From contig NZ_WVUD01000002.1 in assembly GCF_009856865.1 (NCBI RefSeq), forward strand, positions 1 through 64,000: a DNA stretch of 64,000 nt, written 5' to 3'. Position 1 is the first letter of the stretch, and the number at the start of each line of letters is the position of its first letter. The position numbers were made by a program, and so were the translations under genes. Source of the stretch: Solidesulfovibrio aerotolerans. Its GTDB lineage: Bacteria > Desulfobacterota > Desulfovibrionia > Desulfovibrionales > Desulfovibrionaceae. Of this stretch, positions 27,031 to 30,722 are shown in pieces. Below the pieces are notes generated by a model. That model did not search any database, was not told where the DNA came from, and saw only the letters and a program-made list of their open reading frames with translations.

Positions 27031-28119
27031 GTGGAAAACCCCATCCCCACTCCCCTGACCGACTGGAACCGCAGCCACGGTGCCAAGATGGTGCCGTTTG
27101 CCGGCTACGACATGCCGGTGCAATACACGTCCATCCTGGCCGAACACGAGCACAGCCGCACCAAGGCCGCCGTCTTCGACATCTGCCACATGGGCGAGTT
27201 TCTCCTGACCGGACCCGGCGCGGCCGAGGGGCTGGGCAAGGCCGTCACCCACGATCTGGCCACTCTGGCCCCGGGCAAATGCCGCTACGGTTTTTTGCTC
27301 AATGCCGCCGGCGGCGTCATTGACGATCTGATCATCTACTGCCTGGGCGTGGACGAGTACATGCTGGTGGTCAACGCCTCGCGCATCCAGGTCGATTTCG
27401 AGGCCATCAAAAGCCGTCTGCCGGCCGGGGCCGCTTTTAAAGACGTCTCGGTCCAGACCGCCAAGATCGATCTCCAGGGACCGCTGGCCTTTGAGGTGCT
27501 CAAAGACCGCGTCCCGGGCGATTTTTCGGGCTTGAAATACTTTAATTTCGCCTGGACCGAATTCCAGGGAGCCAGGCTCATGGTCAGCCGCACCGGCTAC
27601 ACCGGGGAACTGGGCTATGAGCTGTTTCTCCCGGCCGAACAGGCCGTGGCCTTGTGGGAGGCGCTGGTGGCCGATCCGCGCGTCATGCCGGTCGGGCTTG
27701 GAGCGCGCGACACCATCCGTCTGGAGATGGGCTATCCGCTGTACGGCCAGGATCTCGACGAGGAGCACACCCCGGCCGAGGCCGGCTACGGCTGGCTGCT
27801 CACCTCCCCGGCCGAGTATGTCGGCAAGGGCAAGGCGGCTGCGCTGCGCCAGAAACTGATCGCCCTGGAAATCCCCGGCCGGCGCAGCGCCCGGCACGGC
27901 GACGTGGTGCTGGATCGCAATGGCGAGACTGTTGGCGTCGTCACCAGCGCCTCCTTTGCCCCGAGCCTGGGCCATGCCGTGGCCCTGGCCTATGTGGACG
28001 CCGCAGCGGCCGAAGCCAATAACTTTGTGGTCAAGGCCGCCCGCACCGAACTGCCGGCCGTCAAGCGCGCCCTGCCCTTTTATAAAAACGGCACGGCCCG
28101 AAAGGCTGTGACCGGCTAG
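27031..28119 (+). CDS. gcvT: Glycine cleavage T protein (aminomethyltransferase)
   Basis: A 362-residue folate-binding enzyme that transfers the methylene group of H-protein-bound aminomethyl to tetrahydrofolate. It shows FAGYDMPVQYTSI, DICHMGEF (catalytic aspartate region), RTGYTGELGYELF, ARDTIRLEMGYPLYGQDL, and the C-terminal barrel with GVVTSASFAPSLG. Starts with GTG at 27031 (GGAG eight bases upstream). The other gcv genes are not in the window, so it is detached from its usual operon here. A hairpin follows at 28139. Confidence 0.93.
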   Translation: MENPIPTPLTDWNRSHGAKMVPFAGYDMPVQYTSILAEHEHSRTKAAVFDICHMGEFLLTGPGAAEGLGKAVTHDLATLAPGKCRYGFLLNAAGGVIDDLIIYCLGVDEYMLVVNASRIQVDFEAIKSRLPAGAAFKDVSVQTAKIDLQGPLAFEVLKDRVPGDFSGLKYFNFAWTEFQGARLMVSRTGYTGELGYELFLPAEQAVALWEALVADPRVMPVGLGARDTIRLEMGYPLYGQDLDEEHTPAEAGYGWLLTSPAEYVGKGKAAALRQKLIALEIPGRRSARHGDVVLDRNGETVGVVTSASFAPSLGHAVALAYVDAAAAEANNFVVKAARTELPAVKRALPFYKNGTARKAVTG

Positions 28120-28138
28120 GCGCTTCGCAACAATAAAA

Positions 28139-28167
28139 CGGCCGGGGGGCGAACAGCCTCCCGGCCG
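28139..28167 (+). terminator. Strong hairpin after gcvT
   Basis: CGGCCGGGGGGC and GCCTCCCGGCCG form a 12-bp stem round a five-base loop, 20 bases past the gcvT stop. On the plus strand no T-run follows; on the minus strand TTTTATTG follows. It also marks the left edge of the ATPase/PIN cassette. Confidence 0.55.
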
Positions 28168-28235
28168 GCTGCCGTTGCAGATGTTCCCGCAACGCAGGCG
28201 ACACAGAAAACCGGGATAGTGCCCAAGGACATGTC

Positions 28236-29456
28236 ATGATCAAATCATTGCGGCTCATCAATTGGAAGAGTTTCGCCGATGCGACGCTCTACATTGATCC
28301 GCTGACTGTGGTCATCGGCATGAATGCCAGCGGGAAATCCAATATTTTGGATGCGCTGTGTTTTTTGCAGCGGATTGCGTCTGGAGTGCCCATTGCAACG
28401 GCCCTGGCTGGCGACAACATGCTCGCGGGCTTGCGAGGCGGGCTTGATTTGAGCCCCAGACACCCCCATCACCATTTTACGCTAACGACCGTCATATCTG
28501 ACCGGAACAATAAAGAGTTTACCCATACAATCACTGTTACAACAGACAAGTCAACAGCATCAATAACATCAGAAGAAATAACAAGCAACTCAGACAACAA
28601 AAAACTCATACATTTCGAAACACTACATGAGACACTCGCTCTGGTAGCAAATCTTGAAAACAGAGAAACGTTCTCTAAACCACACCAATTGTTTACAACT
28701 TCTGCACATTCATTACTAATAAAAACGGATTCACTGCCCATTTCCGAAGAAATAAAGGATGCCTCCCGGTCAATCAAAGATTATCTGCAATCCATATTCA
28801 TCCTTGACCCGATACCGAGCCACATGCGCGGCTATGTTCCCCTTTCCGATACTCTCAAGCCGGATGCCGCCAACATCGCCGGCGTGCTGGCTTCGCTATC
28901 CGACGCAGAACGATCCCACATCGAATCCACGCTGACCGCCTATCTCCAGCAGCTTCCGGAACGCGACATCGAACGCGTCTGGACCGAACGCGTAGGCAGA
29001 CTCGCCTCCGACGCTATGCTCTATTGCGAAGAGAACTGGGGCGGCAAGACACCGCAAATCGTCGATGCGCGCGGCATGTCCGACGGCACACTCCGCTTCC
29101 TCGCCGTCGTCGCCGCTCTGCTAACCTGCAAAAGAGGCAGCCTGCTCGTCATCGAAGAGGTCGATAACGGCCTACACCCTTCCCGGGCCGATACCCTGGT
29201 GGATATGTTGCGCACCCTTGGGGCCAGACGCAACATCGACGTCATCGTCACCACACACAACCCGGCCTTGCTCAATGCCCTTGGCCCGGAAATGGTCCCC
29301 TTTATCTCCGTGACCCACCGTGACGCATCCGGGGCCAGCGCCATCACCCTGCTCGAAGACATAGAGCAGCTCCCCAAACTCATGGCCGGCGGCCCGCTCG
29401 GCCGCATCGTCAGCGAAGGTCGCCTGGAATCGGCCCTGCAGCACGACGGGGAGTAA
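28236..29456 (+). CDS. OLD/RloA-like AAA ATPase of a two-gene cassette
   Basis: A 406-residue ABC-class ATPase. The N-terminus KSLRLINWKSFADATLYI and Walker A GMNASGKSN (28-36) are typical of the SMC/OLD/RloA group. The C-terminal half has the signature DARGMSDGTLRFLAVV (about 274-289), Walker B LLVIEEVDNGLHPSRAD (about 302-318) and H-loop VIVTTHNPALLN (about 335). There is no TOPRIM domain, so it is not a full OLD nuclease. Residues about 80-185, between the ATPase halves, are encoded by clearly AT-rich DNA (28480-28790), unlike the rest. A PIN-like gene follows after five bases and was presumably acquired with it. Such pairs usually act in phage defence; this is inference. Confidence 0.8.
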   Translation: MIKSLRLINWKSFADATLYIDPLTVVIGMNASGKSNILDALCFLQRIASGVPIATALAGDNMLAGLRGGLDLSPRHPHHHFTLTTVISDRNNKEFTHTITVTTDKSTASITSEEITSNSDNKKLIHFETLHETLALVANLENRETFSKPHQLFTTSAHSLLIKTDSLPISEEIKDASRSIKDYLQSIFILDPIPSHMRGYVPLSDTLKPDAANIAGVLASLSDAERSHIESTLTAYLQQLPERDIERVWTERVGRLASDAMLYCEENWGGKTPQIVDARGMSDGTLRFLAVVAALLTCKRGSLLVIEEVDNGLHPSRADTLVDMLRTLGARRNIDVIVTTHNPALLNALGPEMVPFISVTHRDASGASAITLLEDIEQLPKLMAGGPLGRIVSEGRLESALQHDGE

Positions 29457-29461
29457 GTGCA

Positions 29462-29977
29462 ATGCCCGGGAAAGTGCTGGTCCTCGACACCTGTATTCTG
29501 TGCGTCTGGTTGCAAATTCCCGGCAAAACAACGTGCGGACCCGACCATGACAGATGGGATTTCGCCAGAGTTGACGCCAAACTGCGTCAGGAAGAACTGG
29601 AAAAGGCCACCTTCGTGCTGCCGCTGGCGACTATCATCGAAACCGGCAACCATATCAGCCAGACCAATGGCGACAGAAAGAAGCTGGCCGACTCCCTGGG
29701 CAAGATCATGCAACAGGCTGCCAACAGCACGTCGCCCTGGGCCGCGTTCAGCGACCAATCCGAACTCTGGTCCGACGGAAAATTGGGCGCGCTGGCTGTG
29801 ACGTGGCCGCCCCTGGCCGCCCAGAAACTGTCCCTGGGAGACGCAACCATCCAGGAAGTTGCGGCCTTTTATGCCAAAACCGGCTGTCACGTGGAACTCT
29901 TGACCGGCGACCAAGGCCTTAAAGCCTACGAGCCGGCCAAACCTACCACTCTGCCGCGACGCCGCGCCCGGCCCTAG
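29462..29977 (+). CDS. PIN-like nuclease partner
   Basis: A 171-residue protein with a PIN-domain layout. The first strand VLVLDTCILCVWL gives D9, LPLATIIETGNHI gives E60, LSLGDATIQEVAAF gives D127, and VELLTGDQGLKAY gives D150. These are the four acidic residues expected of a PIN ribonuclease active site. Length is a little above that of VapC toxins (about 130-150) because of a Trp-containing loop (about 92-117). A GGAG site lies seven bases before the ATG, and the ATPase gene ends five bases upstream, so they form one operon. No antitoxin-like gene is seen, suggesting that the ATPase itself controls the nuclease. Confidence 0.65.
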   Translation: MPGKVLVLDTCILCVWLQIPGKTTCGPDHDRWDFARVDAKLRQEELEKATFVLPLATIIETGNHISQTNGDRKKLADSLGKIMQQAANSTSPWAAFSDQSELWSDGKLGALAVTWPPLAAQKLSLGDATIQEVAAFYAKTGCHVELLTGDQGLKAYEPAKPTTLPRRRARP

Positions 29978-29999
29978 CCGCGCCAAGGACCATCCGATC

Positions 30000-30722
30000 A
30001 TGGGCCGACCCGACTTTTTTTTTATCCCGCCCGAGGCCTTTGCCGCGCCGTATGCCCTGACCGGCGGCGAGGCCAACCACTGCGCCAAGGTGCTGCGAAA
30101 GCAGGCCGGCGACACGGTGCGCGCCTTTGATGGCCAGGGGCGCGACGGCCTTTTCGCCATAAAGGCCCTCTCCCGCAGCCGGGTGGAGCTTGAGCCGATC
30201 TCCCTTGCCGTCGCTCCCCTGCCAGCGCGCCGCCTGCATCTGGCCGCCGGCTTTTCCCGGTCGGCCCGACGCGATTTCTTTCTGGAAAAGGCCGTGGAAC
30301 TGGACGCTGCCGGTATCCTCTTCTGGCAGGCCGAACGCTCCCAGGGCAAAATGCCAGGCGAGCCCAAAGAAGCCTGGACTACGGCGCTTATTACCGCCGC
30401 CAAGCAGTGCGGCGCGGCCCGGCTGCCGTCCCTTCGCCTGGCGGCCAGCGCCGCCGCCCTGGCCGCCGATACCGGGCAGGGCTTTGTCCGGCGGTATCTG
30501 CTCTGGGAAGACCCGGGCGTGGCCCGCCATCTGACCCCGGCCGATCTGGCCGAACCGGGCGACACACTGTGCGTCGTTGGCCCGGAAGGCGGCCTGTCTG
30601 ACGCCGAAGCCCGCCTTTTTAGAGACGCCGGCTTTGTGCCGGTCACGCTCGGTGCGCGCGTGCTGCGCTGGGAAACCGCCGCCCTGGCCGTTTTAGCCCT
30701 TGGTCTGGTCGCCGCCTCCTGA
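30000..30722 (+). CDS. rsmE: 16S rRNA m3U1498 methyltransferase RsmE
   Basis: A 240-residue SPOUT methyltransferase that modifies U1498 of 16S rRNA. It has the PUA-like N-terminus (ALTGGEANHCAKVLRKQAGDTVRAFDG), the motif KAVELDAAGILFWQAERS, and the SAM-binding trefoil knot LCVVGPEGGLSDAEARLF with LGARVLRWETAALAVLAL. The start is 22 bases after the PIN-like gene, so the cassette sits directly against it. Confidence 0.92.
   Translation: MGRPDFFFIPPEAFAAPYALTGGEANHCAKVLRKQAGDTVRAFDGQGRDGLFAIKALSRSRVELEPISLAVAPLPARRLHLAAGFSRSARRDFFLEKAVELDAAGILFWQAERSQGKMPGEPKEAWTTALITAAKQCGAARLPSLRLAASAAALAADTGQGFVRRYLLWEDPGVARHLTPADLAEPGDTLCVVGPEGGLSDAEARLFRDAGFVPVTLGARVLRWETAALAVLALGLVAAS

Follow-up and report, generated by a model that had tools for sequence, protein, structure and literature searches.

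An ABC ATPase and PIN-domain gene pair of the candidate defence family PDC-M07 inserted between gcvT and rsmE in Solidesulfovibrio aerotolerans

The window analysed here, a stretch of 64,000 nucleotides of contig NZ_WVUD01000002.1 from Solidesulfovibrio aerotolerans, carries two adjacent genes, A and B, flanked by gcvT (27031-28119) and rsmE (30000-30722), with rarA beyond. Gene A runs from an ATG to a TAA and encodes 406 residues, gene B runs from an ATG to a TAG and encodes 171 residues, and the gap between them is 5 nt (Table 1). Both reading frames and all motifs are intact, and B is single-copy in the 4.6-Mb genome. The complete two-gene operon that the initial annotation had placed between gcvT and rsmE is borne out, with exact coordinates. 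This copy lies between housekeeping genes, outside any defence island. A promoter scan found no sigma-70-like site upstream of A, an uninformative result. In congeners a run of T follows the gcvT terminator hairpin (window 28119-28240); the insertion starts right there and the window lacks the T run, so that A and B may be read through from gcvT.

Table 1. Coordinates in the window of the gene pair and of the inserted segment
Feature	Position	Strand	Basis
Gene A, ABC-type ATPase (PDC-M07A family), Rad50/PtuA-like head, no TOPRIM (model-based)	28236-29456	+	PADLOC, Pfam AAA_21, AF2
Gene B, predicted PIN-domain nuclease (PDC-M07B family); D9, E60, D127, D150; basic PRRR tail	29462-29977	+	PADLOC, AF2, invariant acidic residues
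Left edge of inserted segment and leader of A	28166-28235	.	blastn against L028, L029
Right edge of insert, rsmE leader	29978-29999	.	blastn against L028, L029
Variable A+T-rich insert region of the ATPase gene	28480-28800	+	38% GC; poorly aligned columns

A search against PADLOC-DB v2.0.0 placed both genes in one candidate system, PDC-M07. Protein A matched PDC-M07A with an E-value of 1.6e-154 and 512.9 bits (residues 1-403 on profile positions 1-407 of 412), the next PADLOC family being HEC-01A (3e-44, 149.6 bits), and protein B matched PDC-M07B with an E-value of 5.4e-46 (residues 4-160 on profile positions 3-152 of 154). With both profiles covered nearly in full and the genes adjacent, the pair is, as judged from sequence, a member of PDC-M07. 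The description of the two genes at the outset as a candidate defence pair with a PIN effector was right in kind, and the defence context of the relatives supports it, but the pair is not undescribed, since the catalogue already lists both genes. The PADLOC entry itself comes without a description or function, and PDCs are putative candidates drawn from guilt-by-embedding, mostly without experimental validation (2026 survey, PMC12988326). The papers searched (preprints and the 2020 ABC ATPase survey of Krishnan et al. aside) contained neither the name PDC-M07 nor a direct report of an ATPase-PIN pair, nor a phage, toxicity or nuclease experiment on PDC-M07. What is added here is the PIN assignment of B, the adjacency of A and B across many phyla, the asymmetry of lone A genes, the empty-site comparison and the embedding pattern.

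Protein A contains a Walker A motif (GMNASGKSN, residue 28), an ABC signature (MSDGTLR, residue 281), an EE-type Walker B motif (LLVIEEVDNGLHPSR, residue 303) and an H-loop (TTHNP, residue 339). These motifs are conserved across 24 aligned sequences, the exception being a change of EE to EK in one relative (L018:4730-5998). Pfam matched A to AAA_21. In the AF2 model (pLDDT 88.0) structure comparison matched the heads of Rad50, SMC and PtuA at Z 20-22, and only about 65 residues with a few short elements follow the H-loop, too few to hold a TOPRIM domain. The motif set and the absence of TOPRIM are as first annotated, and on the model A is a Rad50/PtuA-type head without TOPRIM. Lacking a C-terminal TOPRIM, A falls outside the OLD nuclease family; the earlier label "OLD/RloA-like" is loosely right, the closest solved structures being PtuA and the Rad50/SMC heads. 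Residues of about 100-170 form a variable insert in the alignment, and the corresponding DNA has a GC content of 38%, against 65-69% in gcvT and rsmE.

For protein B, Pfam and NCBIfam gave no match, which leaves structure and PADLOC as the only informative sources, and searching PDB sequences with a profile of B returned nothing useful. The AF2 model, built from 23 sequences, reached a pLDDT of 86.9. Foldseek placed PIN proteins (VapC, FitB, SMG6) as the leading PDB matches, with E-values only of 0.006 and above, while VIA-align ranked VapC20 first (Z 13.0, rmsd 2.6 Å over 127 residues), ahead of a long series of VapC toxins; VapC, FitB and further PIN proteins make up the leading PDB matches above Z 10. 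All 23 relatives, the most distant at 31% identity, keep D9, E60, D127 and D150. In the model these residues lie where the acidic residues of a PIN domain would be expected, at the end of strand 1, in helix 55-67, at the start of helix 125-139 and after strand 143-147. In a wider set E60, D127 and D150 remain unchanged, and L065 is the only sequence without D9. Structure prediction thus upholds the PIN fold first proposed from residue spacing, and the four acidic residues then singled out are exactly the invariant ones. We conclude that B is, as modelled, a PIN domain. PIN folds can cut RNA, act on DNA or serve other roles; B is probably a metal-dependent RNase.

Each of the 25 relatives fetched by B alone has A directly upstream of B, with strand and gene order unchanged, and the stop and start codons often overlap. 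The A-A and B-B identities are correlated (r = 0.90, 0/5000 permutations), and together with the adjacency in 25/25 loci this means that the pairing goes beyond chance. Among 292 cyanobacterial genomes, 29 of the 34 strong A loci have B alongside and five have A alone (G858, G941, G996, G870:C1 and G854, the last of them broken), with at least four of these five lone genes open over near full length. The pairing of an ATPase with a putative nuclease, proposed at the outset, is upheld. No intact B without A was found in the same 292 genomes, the exceptions being contig ends or truncated copies (L140, L149/L162). The presence of lone A and absence of intact lone B fits a B protein that is harmful or useless without A. 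The lone A genes also show that A can persist for a while in the absence of B, which counts against the explanation that we favour below.

Broken relatives of the pair occur in L024, L157 and L149/L162. The L024 copy (L024:260-2014) has a frameshift in B, and in the B gene of Anabaena cylindrica (L065:5881-6360) the first catalytic Asp has become Tyr. In two further loci (L158:4472-5071 and L159:2864-3451) a protein of about 200 residues follows an ATPase about 27% identical to A. The L158 protein had no Pfam or PADLOC match; by eye it resembles RloB/TOPRIM-like proteins, and a further effector swap is possible.

In all 11 same-genus genomes with both genes readable, rsmE follows gcvT at about 80-170 bp, and blastn homology with the nearest congeners (L028, L029) ends at 28165, inside the gcvT terminator, and resumes at 29982/29983. 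Since gcvT adjoins rsmE in every one of these congeners, the insertion of A and B at this site is, from the sequence comparison, a recent one. The pair is therefore not fixed at the junction, and its mobility is upheld. The junction was also considered as a recurrent defence hotspot and rejected as such, as nothing lies there in the 11 congeners. The leaders of A (CCAAGGACAT) and rsmE (CCAAGGACCAT, 29978-30003) are alike, perhaps through a short duplication at insertion. Because close relatives have the empty site and the insertion in the window is clean and natural in origin, this copy would lend itself readily to comparison with a deletion.

The distribution of B is patchy. It was found in 3 of 99 relatives (the window genome counted, one copy distant), in 3 of 395 genomes of the phylum, in 5 of 369 genomes of one gammaproteobacterial class and in 28 of 292 cyanobacteria. 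In a tree of A and B together the copy in the window falls, with weak support (88/88), beside two other copies of its own family. A Chromatiaceae copy sits among Chloroflexota copies in a supported group (99/96), a placement that points to transfer between phyla. Horizontal acquisition of the window locus forms part of our best explanation. No B relatives were found in viral contigs and phage records, which leaves phage carriage without evidence. A comparison of a Photobacterium copy with E. coli genomes, at the DNA level only, gave no match, so no ready E. coli homologue was found. One congener (G008, L144:7694-9486) carries a distant pair of the other subfamily at a different site, its A being 33% and its B about 30% identical to those of the window.

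Several relatives are nested in defence operons, and these embeddings are lower bounds, taken from a scan of neighbours in selected loci without a background rate. Linkage to type I RM genes was seen in L066, L114, L129 and L137. On Photobacterium plasmid pAQU1 the order is hsdM-hsdS-A-B-hsdR, and near-identical copies exist on two more plasmids. In L114 (G469) the order is hsdM, PDC-S13, PDC-S05, hsdS, A, B, hsdR, and in two cyanobacteria (L129, L137) it is hsdM...hsdS-A-B. Two BREX arrangements were found: a Desulfobacteraceae MAG (L005) has pglX-A-B-pglZ, the genes overlapping, and Akkermansia MAGs (L020) have pglX-A-B-orf-brxHI-pglZ. A DISARM-like locus (L113) reads DpdE/DrmD helicase-DrmMI-A-B-DrmA, and beside Hma genes the order is A-B-HmaA-HmaB (L003/L146). 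In Cohnella (L148) the pair comes after type I RM genes and three TIR-like ThsB matches. Each of the type I RM, BREX, DISARM and Hma hosts of the pair carries a DNA methyltransferase.

Some of these loci hold additional candidates. PDC-S13, PDC-S05 and the A-B pair make three candidate inserts in one type I RM operon (L114:10904-12771), and in Cohnella a 469-residue gene without a PADLOC match sits between the RM genes and A-B (L148:4541-7519). HEC-01, a RloA-like ATPase with DUF4276, directly follows the pair in L017:6882-8665, placing two ATPase-effector systems side by side, and L119, L126 and L162 also have ATPase matches of this kind close to the pair. The two genes after hsdM-hsdS-A-B in L129 (L129:8239-8963) look by eye like XisH and XisI, and a PADLOC scan of the first of them was negative.

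We propose, as the probable explanation, that the two genes arrived by horizontal transfer and form an anti-phage module of the PDC-M07 family, with an ABC ATPase sensor and gate and a VapC-like PIN ribonuclease effector. In the scheme that we infer, A would be a dimerising Rad50/PtuA-like ABC ATPase that keeps B inactive in uninfected cells. A phage-induced signal, such as DNA ends or a disturbed restriction or BREX complex, would alter the ATP state of A, and the altered A would then release or activate B, a putative VapC-like metal-dependent ribonuclease. Active B would cut an essential RNA, tRNA being a first guess; translation would stop, phage production would fail and the infected cells would cease to grow. 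That A gates B and that B cuts RNA needed for translation is the most likely arrangement by analogy with WonAB, retron-Eco7 PtuAB and PrrC. The site of the window copy between housekeeping genes was counted against an anti-phage role. A candidate family found only as a catalogue entry gains a testable identity: a predicted PIN nuclease with a defined catalytic tetrad and a putative ABC ATPase gate.

For the embedded copies, the type I RM genes beside them point to a guard role like that of PrrC. A narrower form of the same explanation is that the module monitors methyltransferase-based defence complexes (type I RM, BREX, DISARM, Hma), and that their inhibition by a phage sets off the PIN ribonuclease. 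We regard this as possible, although it is not the reading we would expect to hold. The positions of relatives between hsdS and hsdR, inside BREX and DISARM and beside Hma, all with a DNA methyltransferase, speak for it, and PrrC itself is linked to type Ic RM and triggered by a phage anti-restriction peptide (PMC3874168). Most copies, that of the window included, are nevertheless not beside such an operon, any defence gene travelling in defence islands would be expected to become embedded, and both PrrC and RloC consist of one chain and use another nuclease. Stand-alone copies would have to act in trans or, like RloC, have a sensor of their own; the window copy possibly does one or the other, the genome containing two type I RM loci elsewhere. 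The nesting of relatives in type I RM, BREX and DISARM operons also opens to test whether operons of this kind hold suicide RNases in reserve, to fire, as PrrC does, once a phage has blocked the first-line defence. In its most specific form, which we put forward tentatively, PDC-M07 would be the equivalent of PrrC in a portable form, split over two genes and built on a PIN domain. Such a guard would plug in between the genes of methyltransferase-containing defence operons, sense when phage anti-restriction proteins inhibit them and halt translation by cutting RNA, with stand-alone copies guarding in trans.

The main rival outside defence is a toxin-antitoxin function, in which B would be a VapC-like toxin, A an ATP-dependent antitoxin or chaperone, and the main role maintenance on mobile elements. 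The closeness of the B fold to VapC toxins, the existence of lone A with no intact lone B and the A-B copies on plasmids all agree with it, but there is no VapB-like gene, A is a 406-residue ABC ATPase, and addiction alone leaves the nesting of several copies in defence operons unexplained, so that we judge it unlikely. Slightly more doubtful is a module acting on DNA, in which the Rad50-like ATPase would load the PIN protein as a DNA nuclease onto phage DNA ends or structures. Here the best matches of the A head to Rad50/SMC along with PtuA are in its favour, as is the targeting of nicked phage DNA reported for Septu PtuAB in work cited in PMC11555353; the matches of B above Z 10, by contrast, are VapC-type RNases and other prokaryotic PIN proteins and include no DNA flap nuclease. 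It is improbable that the pair has no part in defence and serves instead in repair or as an accessory to housekeeping, or that it is a functionless insertion in decay. The site between gcvT and rsmE and the broken state of some relatives would suit such a reading, but the window reading frames and motifs are intact, the distribution is patchy and relatives are embedded in defence operons. The anti-phage ATPase-PIN module remains our preferred explanation.

Membership in the named systems PARIS, Septu, Gabija, WonAB, VapBC and PrrC/RloC was considered and rejected, the effector or the layout differing in each. WonAB of the Vibrio cholerae WASA-1 prophage consists of an OLD-type ABC ATPase and a small nuclease, both needed for phage defence (PMC12137116). 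WonAB and the related PD-T4-4 share with A-B the arrangement of two genes for an ABC ATPase and a small nuclease, although the WonAB nuclease has a PD-(D/E)xK fold and B a predicted PIN fold; the likeness is one of layout. In Septu and retron PtuAB the PtuA head is among the best structural matches of A (Z 20-21), retron PtuA being longer than A. The Septu/PtuAB partner is an HNH nuclease, whereas B matches no PtuB model and is predicted to fold as PIN. Retron-Eco7 PtuAB depletes tRNA-Tyr (PMC11555353). PARIS likewise combines an AAA_21-type ATPase with a nuclease effector, AriB, described in PMC12409363 as cutting tRNA, but AriB is a TOPRIM protein (DUF4435), B has no AriB match, and the AriA models score A at 105.7 bits, far below the 512.9 of PDC-M07A. 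Gabija consists of GajA with a TOPRIM and the UvrD-like helicase GajB, whereas A has no TOPRIM and B no GajB match. HEC-01 (RloA/RloB-like ATPase with DUF4276), the second-best PADLOC family for A, has DUF4276 rather than PIN as its effector. The VapC of VapBC shares the PIN fold with B (Z 13.0), but there is no VapB at the window and the upstream neighbour of B, 5 nt away, is an ABC ATPase. The anticodon nuclease of PrrC is under the control of its ABC ATPase domain. Every PrrC is coupled to a type Ic RM locus and has a phage anti-restriction peptide as its trigger, whereas RloC seldom has RM genes beside it and reacts to DNA breaks (PMC3874168). The RM linkage that defines PrrC, and not RloC, is absent at the window with its gcvT and rsmE flanks, and in PrrC and RloC one chain holds the ATPase and a nuclease of another type, where A and B are two genes. 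Common to both are the control of an RNase by an ABC ATPase, as we propose it for A and B, and the linkage of PrrC to type I RM, which relatives of the pair share.
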